NCBI RefSeq assembly: GCF_025200925.1
Contig: NZ_CP104174.1
Coordinates: 6,200,001 to 6,264,000 of the forward strand
DNA from: Bradyrhizobium sp. CB1015
GTDB taxonomy: Bacteria > Pseudomonadota > Alphaproteobacteria > Rhizobiales > Xanthobacteraceae
DNA: 64,000 nt
Direction: 5' to 3'
Positions within the stretch are counted from its first letter, which is position 1. Every line of letters starts with the position of its first letter. The notes beneath the pieces are model-generated. The model ran no database searches, was not told where the DNA came from, and worked only from the letters and a program-made list of their open reading frames with translations. This document shows, piece by piece, positions 19,990 to 49,974 of this stretch. The translations under genes were made by a program, and so were the position numbers.

Positions 19990-20670
19990 GTGCGCTCCCT
20001 CGTGATCGAAGACGAACCACAGATCGGTGCCTATGTCAGCCGGCTGCTCGGGCAATTGCACGGCATCGTCGACCTCGTCGGCTCGATCGCCGATGCCCGC
20101 CAGGCACTGGACAACTTCAAGTATGATCTGGCGATCGTCGACCGGATGCTGCCCGACGGAGATGCGCTCCAGGTGGTCACGGCGCTGAGCCAATCAGCGG
20201 AGCGGCCCGCAATCATCATGCTGACGTCCAAGGACGCCAAGGAGGATGTCGTCGAAGGGCTCAATGGCGGGGCCGACGACTATCTCGGCAAGCCGTTCGA
20301 GCCGCAGGAGCTGCTTGCGCGGGTGCGCGCGGTGCTGCGCCGGCCCCGGCTGCTCGCGCCTTCGGTGCTGTCGCTCGGCAATGTCGAGCTGCACCTCGGC
20401 AGCAACGAGGCGGTGGTCGCCGACACCAGGGTCCTGCTGCGCCGGCGCGAGGCGCTGATCCTGGGGGCGCTGCTGATGCGGCGCGACCGCGTCATCACCC
20501 GCGCCGCGCTGATCGAGGAGATCTACGGCTTCGACGACGAGATCGAGTCCAACACGCTCGAGGCACAGGTCTCGCGTCTGCGCAAGAAACTGGCCGAGCT
20601 CGGCGGCGACGTCGAGATCCGCAGCATGCGTGGCATCGGCGACATCCTGCGGCTGGCAACGCCGCGATGA
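19990..20670 (+). CDS. OmpR-family response regulator
   Basis: A 226-residue regulator starting at a GTG (19990): receiver domain with E7/D8, phospho-acceptor D51 in AIVDRMLPDG, TSKD switch region and GKPFEP lysine; C-terminal winged helix (residues ~125-226) with LEAQVSRLRKKL and SMRGIGDILR. The open frame continues far upstream, but the extra sequence is not protein-like, and RSLVIEDEP is the canonical receiver start. It overlaps the downstream kinase by 4 bp (ATGA), so translation is coupled. The likely target is the divergent MipA/OmpV operon through the ATTGC repeats. Confidence 0.9.
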   Translation: MRSLVIEDEPQIGAYVSRLLGQLHGIVDLVGSIADARQALDNFKYDLAIVDRMLPDGDALQVVTALSQSAERPAIIMLTSKDAKEDVVEGLNGGADDYLGKPFEPQELLARVRAVLRRPRLLAPSVLSLGNVELHLGSNEAVVADTRVLLRRREALILGALLMRRDRVITRAALIEEIYGFDDEIESNTLEAQVSRLRKKLAELGGDVEIRSMRGIGDILRLATPR

Positions 20671-46538: not shown

Positions 46539-47339
46539 TCAGTAGAAGTTGTGGAAATGATGGACCGGCCCATGGCCCTGGCCGACGCTGAAGCGGTCGG
46601 CGGCAGCGATCGCGGCGCTGATCCAGGCCTTGGCGTTGCGCACGGCGGCCTCGAGGTTCTCGCCCTTGGCCAGCCCCGCCGCGATGGCGGAGGACAGCGA
46701 GCAGCCGGTGCCATGGGTGTTGCGGGTGGCCACGCGCGGCGCGGCGAGCGCGATCGTGGTCTCGGCAGTGACGAGATAATCGGTGCTCTCGGCGCCCTCC
46801 CCGTGCCCGCCCTTGATCAGGACGGCGCGGCAGCCCAGCGCCAGCAGGCGGCGCCCCTGGCTTTCGATCTCGGCCTCGCTCGCCGCCACCGGCTCATCGA
46901 GCAGGGCCGCAGCCTCCGGCAGGTTCGGCGTGATCACGGCGGCCAGCGGCATCAGCCTGGTGCGCAGGGCATCGACGGCTTCAGCGGCCAGCAGGCGGTC
47001 GCCGGAGGTCGCCACCATGACGGGATCGAGCACGACGTGCCGCGGCGCCCAGCGCGACAGCGCGGCCGCGATGGCATCGATGCTGGCGGCCTGGGCCACC
47101 ATGCCGATCTTCACCGCACCAATGTCGAGGTCGGAGAACACCGCGTCGATCTGCTCGGTGACGAACCCGGCCGGCACCGCGTGAATGCCGGTCACGCCGC
47201 GCGTGTTCTGCGCCGTCAGCGCCGTGATCACGGAGGCGCCGTAGACGCCGAGCGCGGCAAAGGTCTTCAGGTCCGCCTGGATGCCGGCGCCGCCGCTCGA
47301 ATCGGAACCGGCGATGGTGAGTGCGACCGGGGTCGTCAT
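46539..47339 (-). CDS. thiD: Bifunctional hydroxymethylpyrimidine kinase/phosphomethylpyrimidine kinase
   Basis: A 266-residue ribokinase-superfamily enzyme, the same length as E. coli ThiD, phosphorylating HMP and HMP-P for thiamine synthesis. Motifs: [25 protein letters not shown]-like [19 protein letters not shown], and [20 protein letters not shown] with the catalytic Asp region. Start 47339 ([13 protein letters not shown]) is canonical; further in-frame ATGs at 47351 and 47405 are less likely. No other thi gene or TPP riboswitch is seen nearby. Confidence 0.94.
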
Positions 47340-47655
47340 CGCGGGAGACATGTGCTTGAGGACGCCGCCATGGCCTGTCCTAGCGCGACCGTGGAACGCC
47401 AGCAAGCGCGCCGAGGCGCCGCCAAGCGTGATTCGCGAATCAATTGCGCACCTCGCGAATCAGTCGGACACAGCGCGGCCAAAGGCCCGCAATGATGCGG
47501 GCTTGAAAATGCAACCGCGCCGGACCCTTGGTATAGTCGTGTACCTTAGCGTGCTTCGCCGGTTAGGCGAGACGTCAGGTGGTGGAACCGTCCAGCGACC
47601 CCATGTTGCGGGCCGCCCCGGCCCGGCCATCTGAACTGACTCCTGGGGTGGAACG
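47340..47655. other. Divergent promoter region of thiD and the hybrid kinase
   Basis: A 316-bp gap with one short hairpin (GCCCGC-AATGAT-GCGGGC at 47485-47502). No known operator consensus and no ORF that looks coding. Confidence 0.5.
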
Positions 47656-49632
47656 ATGTGGGCCTTCTTCGAACGTCTCCTCGACTCGTCCATGCTGTCG
47701 CCGCACGGCATTTGCCTGTTGTGGGAGCCTGAGCTGATCTGGCTTCATGTCGTTTCCGACGCCTGCATTGCCGCCGCCTATTTCTCGATTCCGTTCGCCC
47801 TCGCCATTCTCGTCACCAAGCGGCGCGACCTCAAGTTCGGCTGGGTCTACTGGGCGTTCGCGATCTTCATCATGGCCTGCGGCCTGACTCACGTGCTGTC
47901 GATCTACACGCTGTGGGTTCCGGTCTATGGCATCGAGGGCATGGTCAAGGCGACCACGGCGGTCGCGTCGGTGTTCACCGCCGCTGCGCTCTGGCCGCTA
48001 TTGCCGAAGATCCTGGCGATCCCCTCGCCGTTCGAGCTGCGACAGGTTCAGGCCGCGCTCGAGGAGGAGGAAATCAAGAGCCGTGACGCCACGCTGCTGC
48101 TGCAGCAGGTCCGCGACGCCCAGCGCGCGATGCGCGAGAGCGTGGCGCGCCTCACCGCGATCGTCGAGACCGCGGTCGACGGCGTCATCCTGCTCGACGC
48201 GCAGGACCGCATCCTGCTGTTCAATCCGGCCTGCGAGCGCTTGTTCGGCTACCGCGCAGACGAGGTGATGAACCGCAACGTCGGCATGCTGATGCCCGAG
48301 GCGGATGCGGCGCCCGACCGCCAGGCGCGGCATTTCGCGACCGGCGGCGAGGCCATCGGCCTGCGCAAGGACGGCACGACGTTTGCGATGGACCTGTCGG
48401 TCGGCCAGGCGCGGCAGGACGGCGAATTGATCTTCGTCGGCATCGTCCACGACCTCACCGCGCGCAAGCTGACCGAGCAGCAGCTCCAGCAGGCGCAGAA
48501 GATGGAGACGGTCGGCCAGCTCTCCGGCGGCATCGCGCACGACTTCAACAATCTGTTGACCGTGATCATCGGCAATGCCGAGCACCTGAGCGAGCAGCTC
48601 AAGGCAAGGCCGGACCTCAGGCGCTTTGCCGACGACATCTGCCAATCGGGCGAACAGGGCGCCGAGCTGACGCAGCGCCTGCTCGCCTTCAGCCGCCGCC
48701 AATTGCTGCGGCCTCAGACGATAGATTGCCGCAGCCTGCTCGATTCCATGTTCAAGCTGCTCAAGCGCACCTTGCGCGAAGACATCGAGATCAGGACGAG
48801 CTCCGGGCCCGGCACGGTCCTGGCCTTTGCCGACCGCGCCCAGCTCGAATCCGCCGTGCTGAACCTCGCGCTCAATGCGCAGGATGCCATGCCGTCGGGA
48901 GGCCATCTCACGCTGGCCACGGAGTTGGTCACGATCGACGATGATCGCGCCCTTCACCCGGAGGTCGCACCCGGCAGCTACGCCCTGATCTCGGTCACCG
49001 ATGACGGCGAAGGCATGACGCCCGAGGTCACCGCACGCGCATTCGAGCCGTTCTTCACCACCAAGGAGGCCGGCAAGGGCTCGGGCCTCGGCCTCAGCAT
49101 GGTCTATGGCTTTGCCAAGCAATCAGGCGGCCACGTCTCGATCTACAGCGAGGCAGGCCTTGGAACCACGGTCAGGATCTACCTGCCGCGCGCGAACACC
49201 GGCGGGTCGCAGGCCGATCTTCCCGACGGCGAGGACACCGCGCCGCGAGGCTACGAGACGATCCTGATCGTCGAGGACGATCCGTTCGTCCGCTCCTCCG
49301 TCATTCGCCGGGTGGAAGCGCTCGGATATCGCGTCGCTGCCGCGGTCAACGGCAAGGATGCCCTGCAGCAGCTGCGGAGCGATCCCGGCATCGACTTGCT
49401 GTTCACCGATATCGTGATGCCCGGCGGCATGAGCGGCTGGGACCTCGCCGATCAGGCGCGGCGGCTGCGTCCCGGCCTGCCGGTCCTGTTCACCTCGGGC
49501 TACGCGCTGGAGACCCTGGTCGAGCACGGCCGCGCGCAGGCGCAAGCGATCGTGCTGACCAAGCCCTACCGCAAGGTCGAGCTCGCCCAGCGGCTCAGGG
49601 ATGCATTGGCCGCAGCGGTGGTCCCATCCTAG
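47656..49632 (+). CDS. Hybrid histidine kinase with ethylene-receptor-like N-terminal domain
   Basis: A 658-residue protein. Residues ~25-120 form three transmembrane helices matching the copper-binding ethylene domain of plant ETR1: D35, Y42, I45, P46, I72, C75 and H79 correspond to ETR1 D25, Y32, I35, P36, I62, C65 and H69 with a constant offset of 10. A coiled linker, PAS domain (~165-270), HisKA of the LSGGIAHDFNNLL type with H295, HATPase (DDGEGM, GKGSGLGLSMV) and a C-terminal receiver with D585 (FTDIVMP) follow. It is therefore a membrane sensor passing phosphate internally to its own receiver. No response regulator is adjacent, so the output is unknown. Confidence 0.92.
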   Translation: MWAFFERLLDSSMLSPHGICLLWEPELIWLHVVSDACIAAAYFSIPFALAILVTKRRDLKFGWVYWAFAIFIMACGLTHVLSIYTLWVPVYGIEGMVKATTAVASVFTAAALWPLLPKILAIPSPFELRQVQAALEEEEIKSRDATLLLQQVRDAQRAMRESVARLTAIVETAVDGVILLDAQDRILLFNPACERLFGYRADEVMNRNVGMLMPEADAAPDRQARHFATGGEAIGLRKDGTTFAMDLSVGQARQDGELIFVGIVHDLTARKLTEQQLQQAQKMETVGQLSGGIAHDFNNLLTVIIGNAEHLSEQLKARPDLRRFADDICQSGEQGAELTQRLLAFSRRQLLRPQTIDCRSLLDSMFKLLKRTLREDIEIRTSSGPGTVLAFADRAQLESAVLNLALNAQDAMPSGGHLTLATELVTIDDDRALHPEVAPGSYALISVTDDGEGMTPEVTARAFEPFFTTKEAGKGSGLGLSMVYGFAKQSGGHVSIYSEAGLGTTVRIYLPRANTGGSQADLPDGEDTAPRGYETILIVEDDPFVRSSVIRRVEALGYRVAAAVNGKDALQQLRSDPGIDLLFTDIVMPGGMSGWDLADQARRLRPGLPVLFTSGYALETLVEHGRAQAQAIVLTKPYRKVELAQRLRDALAAAVVPS

Positions 49633-49728: not shown

Positions 49729-49974
49729 ATGGTTCCTTTCTTCGTCCAAATCAAATGCAAGCTCGGCCAGTCCTATACGGTGGCCAATGCGCTTGCCGAA
49801 GCCGAGATCGCCTCCGAGATATACTCCACGGCCGGCCAATACGACCTTCTGGTGAAGTTCTACGTCGACAAGGATACCGACATCGGCCATTTCGTGAATG
49901 AGAAGGTGCAGGTGCTGCCGGGCATCCAGGACACCCTCACCATCATCACCTTCAAGGCGTTCGGCACAGGCTAG
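49729..49974 (+). CDS. Stand-alone Lrp/AsnC ligand-binding (RAM) domain protein
   Basis: An 81-residue protein consisting only of the Lrp/AsnC effector (RAM) fold: PFFVQIKCKLGQSYTVANALAEAE, TAGQYDLLVKFYVD, VQVLPGIQDTLTIITFKAF. It has no DNA-binding domain, so it may be a small-molecule sensor or modulate full Lrp proteins by mixed oligomers. The ATG at 49729 fits the fold; upstream sequence in frame is not protein-like. About 100 bp after the hybrid kinase. Confidence 0.88.
   Translation: MVPFFVQIKCKLGQSYTVANALAEAEIASEIYSTAGQYDLLVKFYVDKDTDIGHFVNEKVQVLPGIQDTLTIITFKAFGTG

Follow-up and report, generated by a model that had tools for sequence, protein, structure and literature searches.

A putative ethylene receptor of Bradyrhizobium that joins a bacterial copper/ethylene domain to a hybrid kinase of FixL type

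A hybrid histidine kinase encoded by Bradyrhizobium sp. CB1015 is, in our judgement, likely to be a receptor of the AzoEtr1 kind, in which a bacterial copper/ethylene membrane domain stands in front of a FixL-like PAS-kinase-receiver module; this assignment was made by sequence comparison. The protein of 658 amino acids is encoded on the + strand at 47656..49632, with an ATG start (open reading frame list and translation), of the window, that is, the whole 64,000-nucleotide stretch of DNA analysed here. The FixL-like origin of its kinase, and a class of related proteins in which the copper-type His is replaced by Arg, go beyond what had been noticed in an earlier note on this DNA, made from the sequence alone.

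Domain order, binding residues and conservation

The fusion of an ethylene/copper-binding domain to PAS, HisKA, HATPase and receiver domains, described in the earlier note, was matched in all its parts by Pfam. The ethylene/copper-binding domain ETR1_N (PF25487; residues 26-122, 47731..48021, + strand) scored 127 bits against a cut-off of 27 in the Pfam scan (E 2.9e-37). A profile search of the 8.41-Mb single-contig genome returned the same stretch as its only match, and none of 14 named control genomes gave a match, so the assignment lies far beyond chance. Downstream on the same strand follow a FixL-like PAS domain (residues 165-266, 48148..48453; Pfam and FixL alignment), HisKA (residues 287-349, 48514..48702) with the phospho-acceptor H295 in the motif AHDFNN, HATPase_c (residues 393-513, 48832..49194) with N407 of the N-box and the G1-box D449-x-G451-x-G453, and a receiver (Response_reg; residues 536-647, 49261..49596) with the phospho-acceptor D585. 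The kinase output residues H295, N407, D449, and D585 are all present. In the AlphaFold model of the ETR1_N domain (mean pLDDT 84), long helices span residues 25-55, 62-84, and 91-120, and the N-terminal domain is accordingly modelled as three predicted membrane helices. No solved PDB structure matched the domain by sequence, and none matched the AlphaFold model by fold at E <= 0.001. Among the named loci listed, those of Bradyrhizobium glycinis and B. agreste are nearest (95% best-segment identity).

All seven ETR1 residues have identical counterparts at an offset of +10, as previously noted: D35, Y42, I45, and P46 in helix 1 (47758..47793, + strand; ETR1 D25, Y32, I35, and P36) and I72, C75, and H79 in helix 2 (47869..47892, + strand; ETR1 I62, C65, and H69). 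This offset ends with helix 2, and K98 (47947..47949, + strand) aligns with ETR1 K91 at +7 and with K98 of AzoEtr1. The correspondence was read from an alignment with what we take to be the Arabidopsis ETR1 sequence; in a profile alignment of 391 sequences, the 120 plant relatives listed share the residues in these columns without exception (120/120). The cyanobacterial domains aligned are other than SynEtr1, which had been proposed for the same comparison. In ETR1 seven residues are described as essential, with C65, H69, I35, P36, and I62 named among them, the full list being that of the earlier note, and the role of C65 and H69 is the basis for assigning C75 and H79 as the expected Cu(I) ligands (PMC6586836). 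The domain score and the seven matching residues support the view of the protein as a membrane sensor kinase of the ethylene/copper type. Just N-terminal to helix 1 is a PHGxC motif (residues 16-20, window 47701-47715), in which, across 60 aligned domains not belonging to the Arg class described below, G18 and C20 are invariant and P16 and H17 almost invariant; in a model of ETR1, residues 4 and 6 form the disulphides of the dimer (PMC6586836).

In a profile survey, ETR1_N was found in 137 of 195 sampled Bradyrhizobium genomes, at canonical strength in 113 (best E-value) and as weaker matches only in 24 more. It was also found in 30/149 genomes sampled from the family (7 of the 30 belonging to the genus), 36/249 from the order, and 20/289 from the class, the four samples sharing some genomes. 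Three types could be told apart in the genus. The window type (ETR1_N-PAS-kinase-receiver) occurs in 62 genomes, with one copy in each; a type without PAS occurs in at least 47 and the Arg class in at least 31 of the 195 genomes. About 16 matches stood outside the typing (second or third matches in 12 genomes, with both of those in G094 counted, and the single matches of G070 and G083), so that the counts for the PAS-less type, the Arg class, and shared genomes are lower bounds. Among typed matches, the window type shares no genome with the Arg class and one (G131) with the PAS-less type, while the latter two share 10. Every window-type genome has a single ETR1_N match except G131 (L118, L126, and L226), whose five matches are the most in the 195-genome sample.

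The earlier note had named loss of the Cys/His pair in close homologues as evidence against its proposal. The pair is retained in 61 of the 62 window-type proteins, and all seven residues are present in the same 61; the exception is L251 (genome G189), with C75S. Among the window protein and 120 listed of 1538 protein matches, 119/121 keep all seven, the deviating ones being P0031 (P46A) and P0116 (C75S). L251 and P0116, natural C75S versions of the window-type receptor, are predicted to have no copper/ethylene binding. In the wider Pfam family the seven residues are complete in 12/18 rows from the family, 14/24 from the order (2 of these 24 rows being Arg-class proteins of the genus), 12/24 from the class, and 10/11 from plasmids; as distant members often are without some of the seven, a Pfam match alone is no guarantee of ethylene binding. 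H295, N407, D449, and D585 are each found in 62/62 window-type proteins; loci L002-L031 were ~3.3 kb long, with some receivers cut off, which explains 15 gaps at K636 and also affects the receiver identities obtained for L007 and L014. The mean pairwise identity of window-type proteins (n=62) is 90% for the ETR1_N domain, 78% for PAS, 94% for HisKA, and 87% for both HATPase and receiver. With a domain more conserved than PAS and in the range of the kinase parts and receiver (87-94%), the ETR1_N sensor is under constraint.

Relation to AzoEtr1 and the case for ethylene

AzoEtr1 from Azospirillum brasilense resembles the window protein in having an N-terminal ethylene-binding domain followed by PAS and histidine kinase, and its published D35, C75, H79, and K98 carry the same numbers. 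It differs by its length of 525 residues and by lacking a fused receiver; its presumed signalling partner is a separate receiver of 135 residues encoded beside it (PMC11819568). The domain is 52.8% and 53.5% identical to those in plasmid records of A. brasilense MTCC4038 and A. argentinense Az39, respectively, neither of them being the Sp7 protein of the published work; between the A. argentinense copy and the window protein, the kinases match only weakly (72 bits). In the study of AzoEtr1, its residues 1-130 bind 14C-ethylene, biofilm formation is not restored by the D35A and C75A variants, K98 is linked to receptor output, biofilm is reduced both by ethylene and by disruption of AzoEtr1, and inhibition of the kinase by ethylene is predicted (PMC11819568). 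The same article describes putative receptors in many plant-associated proteobacteria, and its main text does not name Bradyrhizobium. The earlier description of the family as known in cyanobacteria, with no ligand established in rhizobia, is outdated, since AzoEtr1, a proteobacterial relative, has been shown to bind ethylene. On the cyanobacterial side, SynEtr1 from Synechocystis has the same domain family and a bacterial phosphorelay, but differs in its phytochrome-like light-sensing domain and in signalling to Slr1213 (PMC6508509).

A literature search judged from the titles and abstract openings of the results listed, with subscription journals mostly outside it, returned no functional data (binding or phenotype) on a Bradyrhizobium member, and no single paper bringing together ethylene, FixL, and an ethylene-binding domain. 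Carlew 2019 and Lacey and Binder 2016 may list the genus.

With a bacterial copper/ethylene-binding domain at the front end and, at the back end, a relative of oxygen-sensing kinases, Bradyrhizobium with a window-type receptor can probably detect ethylene, a gas that serves plants as a hormone. For the window protein we infer copper and ethylene binding, the sign of the signal, and a phosphorelay as follows. The three membrane helices would form a dimer holding Cu(I) between C75 and H79. Ethylene would bind to the copper, and the resulting change may travel via helix 3 and the linker to the kinase, where autophosphorylation of H295 would be altered, probably inhibited, as the AzoEtr1 authors propose for both AzoEtr1 and SynEtr1. 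The phosphoryl group would pass from H295 to D585 of the fused receiver and from there to a further partner.

C75 and H79, as expected copper ligands, would also suit a protein that senses copper(I) itself or another copper-bound ligand (CO or another alkene), with ethylene being incidental, and sequence cannot separate ethylene from copper. We nevertheless regard such a role as improbable: the D, Y, I, P, and I residues that ethylene binding requires in addition to the copper ligands are kept in 62/62 window-type proteins, the measured relative AzoEtr1 binds ethylene (PMC11819568), and no copper-handling protein was found by Pfam among the five neighbours scanned.

Origin of the receptor and its variants

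The domain had been called plant-type. Its identity is 44-57% to the proteobacterial and cyanobacterial domains compared and ~33% to those of plants, and a plant-type origin was rejected, as it groups with alphaproteobacterial domains in the domain tree. The window-type, PAS-less, and Arg-class domains, together with some family members, form one group of 60 rows (100/99), and the plant domains group with cyanobacterial ones. This tree sampled the window protein, 14/62 window-type, 18/47 PAS-less, and 14/31 Arg-class proteins. It contains 128 columns, and some of its long branches join each other, as L118 does with Deinococcus, whose placement in this group is doubtful; because of the few columns and long branches, its fine branching was not used. 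The likeness of the layout to plant receptors holds for the hybrid kinase with receiver, as in ETR1, but not for the domain in between, which is PAS here and GAF (PF01590) in ETR1 and in nearly all plant relatives listed. With PAS instead of GAF, and grouping with alphaproteobacteria, the protein falls outside the plant ETR1 subfamily.

In the kinase-receiver tree, the window type (13 rows) joins 14 PAS-kinase-receiver proteins that are without the ETR1_N domain (100/99), and the PAS-less and Arg classes are placed away from it. The tree sampled the window protein, 12/63 window-type (the 63 counting the copy of the window twice), 14/47 PAS-less, and 10/29 Arg-class proteins. HisKA is 83% and 78% identical to two of the domain-less relatives, whereas for four kinases from the other classes the values are 51-59%. 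L050 and L053, the domain-less relatives scanned with Pfam, have two PAS domains, kinase, and receiver. The disagreement between domain tree and kinase tree shows that the window protein consists of a bacterial copper/ethylene domain grafted onto a FixL-like hybrid kinase, and that the same membrane domain is carried by several kinase modules within one genus.

FixL-like hybrid kinases, including rhizobial hFixL, share the order PAS-HisKA-HATPase-receiver with the window protein. The best-segment identity is 62-64% to six domain-less Bradyrhizobium proteins (L050, L052-L056), and a Sinorhizobium medicae protein encoded beside Crp/Fnr and OmpR-type regulators is 48% identical across 519 residues. 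This gene order is the one expected of hfixL, fixK, and fxkR, from the account in which hFixL and its partner FxkR are described (PMC7888657). Unlike these kinases, the window protein has a membrane ethylene-binding domain replacing the first PAS, and its remaining PAS is without the FixL His and loop. It scored 129 bits against the NCBIfam FixL cut-off of 850, which together with the absence of the haem His sets it outside FixL/hFixL; the gene context agrees, with no fixK or FxkR among the five neighbours scanned. Among PDB entries, the kinase core matches CckA best (5idj, E 1.4e-53), but membership in CckA was likewise rejected (340 and 308 bits against an NCBIfam cut-off of 1000). The best NCBIfam model, PRK13557, scored 420 bits, below its cut-off of 631.

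The PAS domain of the window protein matches FixL PAS at 75 bits and is ~10 residues shorter. In the alignment the FixL His, which we take to be the haem ligand, has no opposite residue, and the loop is shortened; with both His and loop segment gone, an active haem-sensing role of this PAS was rejected on sequence grounds. Of the 14 domain-less relatives that scored best (from a pool of 64), 12 have a FixL-like motif (LMP...HDxY or slight variants of it) in the pre-kinase PAS. Three of the 62 window-type proteins (L006, L007, and L014) keep the PAS segment at full length with the His, and in L007 the FixL match reaches 111 bits with His aligned to His. L019 has kept the loop and lost the His, L227 and L231 have H-E-x-Y within a shortened loop, and the signature is lost in the remaining 56/62, the window protein included. 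In a 37-row tree, which included a random selection of 20 ordinary window-type proteins and in which the S. medicae protein forms a very long branch, L006, L007, and L014 lie outside the clade of the other window-type proteins, and L019 is its first branch (91/93; next node 99/98). These positions fit loss of the haem signature after the graft. The 37-row tree leaves the window type unresolved as a single clade relative to the domain-less proteins; in the kinase-receiver tree it is a single clade (100/99). L006, L007, and L014 are thus possible two-gas sensors, with a FixL-like haem-PAS signature beside an ethylene-binding domain. No partner gene is shared by the three, two being followed by an IlvD/Edd-type dehydratase and the third by an open reading frame without Pfam match. 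In L313 (L313, L314, and L315 being wider stretches around L006, L007, and L014), the regulator near the haem-type receptor is LuxR-type, not OmpR-type.

In the Arg class (31 typed; L112-L117, L119-L125, L131, L166, L167, and L287-L301), Tyr42, Pro46, and His79 are replaced by Phe, Ala, and Arg, respectively, and Cys75 and K98 are kept. In the domain tree, the 14 members sampled group as a single clade (100/100), with a long stem, within the Bradyrhizobium domains. Binding of copper and ethylene in the manner of ETR1 is unlikely in this class. H295, N407, D449, and D585 are intact in 29/29 Arg-class proteins long enough to score, and identity within the class is 73% for the domain compared with 89-90% for HisKA and HATPase.

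The variants bear on whether the membrane domain of the window type senses anything or merely anchors a kinase under other inputs. Although the Cys is lost in one window-type protein (L251) and the haem signature is gone from the PAS, we consider a mere anchor highly improbable, as the window-type domain, at 90% average identity, is conserved above PAS and near the kinase, whereas in the class without the copper His the domain is clearly less well conserved.

Other ETR1_N variants were observed. L118, L126, and L149 are short frames (218-233 residues) with no kinase detected; in L118 and L149 a Gly stands in place of K98, whereas L126 resembles one receptor divided between two frames. Outside the order, L177 and L179 from the class sample have ETR1_N in frames of 142 and 153 residues, with seven of seven residues and apparently stand-alone. 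The metagenome protein P0043 (770 residues) combines ETR1_N, PAS, kinase, and AsnC-type domains, as if receptor and downstream gene were fused, and may be a frameshift.

Taken jointly, these patterns allow a tentative proposal, which we hold to be doubtful although possible: ETR1_N would be an interchangeable gas-sensor module in Bradyrhizobium, and the window line would descend from a two-gas receptor, with a membrane copper/ethylene domain and a haem PAS for O2, CO, or NO, still encoded by L006, L007, and L014. A sister class would have exchanged the copper His for an Arg that does not vary and become an ethylene-blind or copper-free sensor with its kinase kept intact. If true, the circuit receiving the ethylene signal would be one that was originally devoted to oxygen.

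Gene neighbourhood and the symbiosis question

The receptor gene is located in a conserved locus marked by thiD (phosphomethylpyrimidine kinase; Pfam), a divergent neighbour at 46539..47405 on the - strand. In the stretches fetched, thiD is near 58/62 window-type genes; L019 is the 59th in this locus, with ~1.8 kb between the genes, and no thiD was found near L006, L007, and L014 within the 14-16 kb fetched. A small stand-alone Lrp/AsnC ligand-binding protein (AsnC_trans_reg) is encoded 96 nt downstream of the receptor gene, at 49729..49974 on the + strand (Pfam and open reading frame; start codon chosen by eye), and its gene is possibly co-transcribed with that of the receptor. The five neighbours scanned with Pfam are thiD, this AsnC-like protein, a cytochrome c, a metallophosphoesterase, and a CHRD protein; no response regulator is among them. 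The best matches in the window genome to the regulator adjacent to the hFixL-like gene in S. medicae scored 222 and 212 bits, compared with up to 343 in other fetched loci, so an FxkR orthologue as partner was not established. An OmpR-type response-regulator match to the S. medicae regulator (86 bits) was observed at 19993-20667 on the + strand, ~27 kb upstream of the receptor.

Ethylene influences the acceptance of rhizobia by legumes (PMC5469071), and the earlier note suggested that the sensor could report plant hormone status. The window genome has nodC (756 bits) and acdS, encoding ACC deaminase (590 bits), as might be expected of a symbiosis sensor reporting host ethylene during nodulation, a role compatible with ethylene binding. 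ACC deaminase destroys the precursor of ethylene. In the 195 genomes, nodC was above cut-off in 105 and ACC deaminase in 171. Presence of the canonical-strength domain is not associated with nodC, which was found in 64/113 genomes with the domain and in 41/82 without it (Fisher p 0.39, relatedness ignored), so a symbiosis-specific role is unsupported. With relatedness likewise ignored, the window type is associated weakly (39/62 against 66/133, p 0.09), and the corresponding values are 24/47 against 81/148 for the PAS-less type (p 0.74) and 14/31 against 91/164 for the Arg class (p 0.33). Moreover, the receptor gene, in its thiD locus, is far from nodC (4.5 Mb along the contig, 3.9 Mb if circular). 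We therefore consider a symbiosis sensor unlikely; as presence does not follow nodulation genes, a general role in soil or the rhizosphere, like that in Azospirillum, is indicated more than one confined to symbiosis.

A likely rhizobial ethylene receptor was to be expected from published statements on the family, whereas its build, in which a copper/ethylene domain is joined to a hybrid kinase of FixL type, was not. With a receptor of their own, these bacteria, most of whose genomes encode ACC deaminase, could also measure ethylene. The natural variants, intact, Cys-to-Ser, His-to-Arg, and with or without a haem-type PAS, constitute a ready set for testing how the domain is wired to the kinase.
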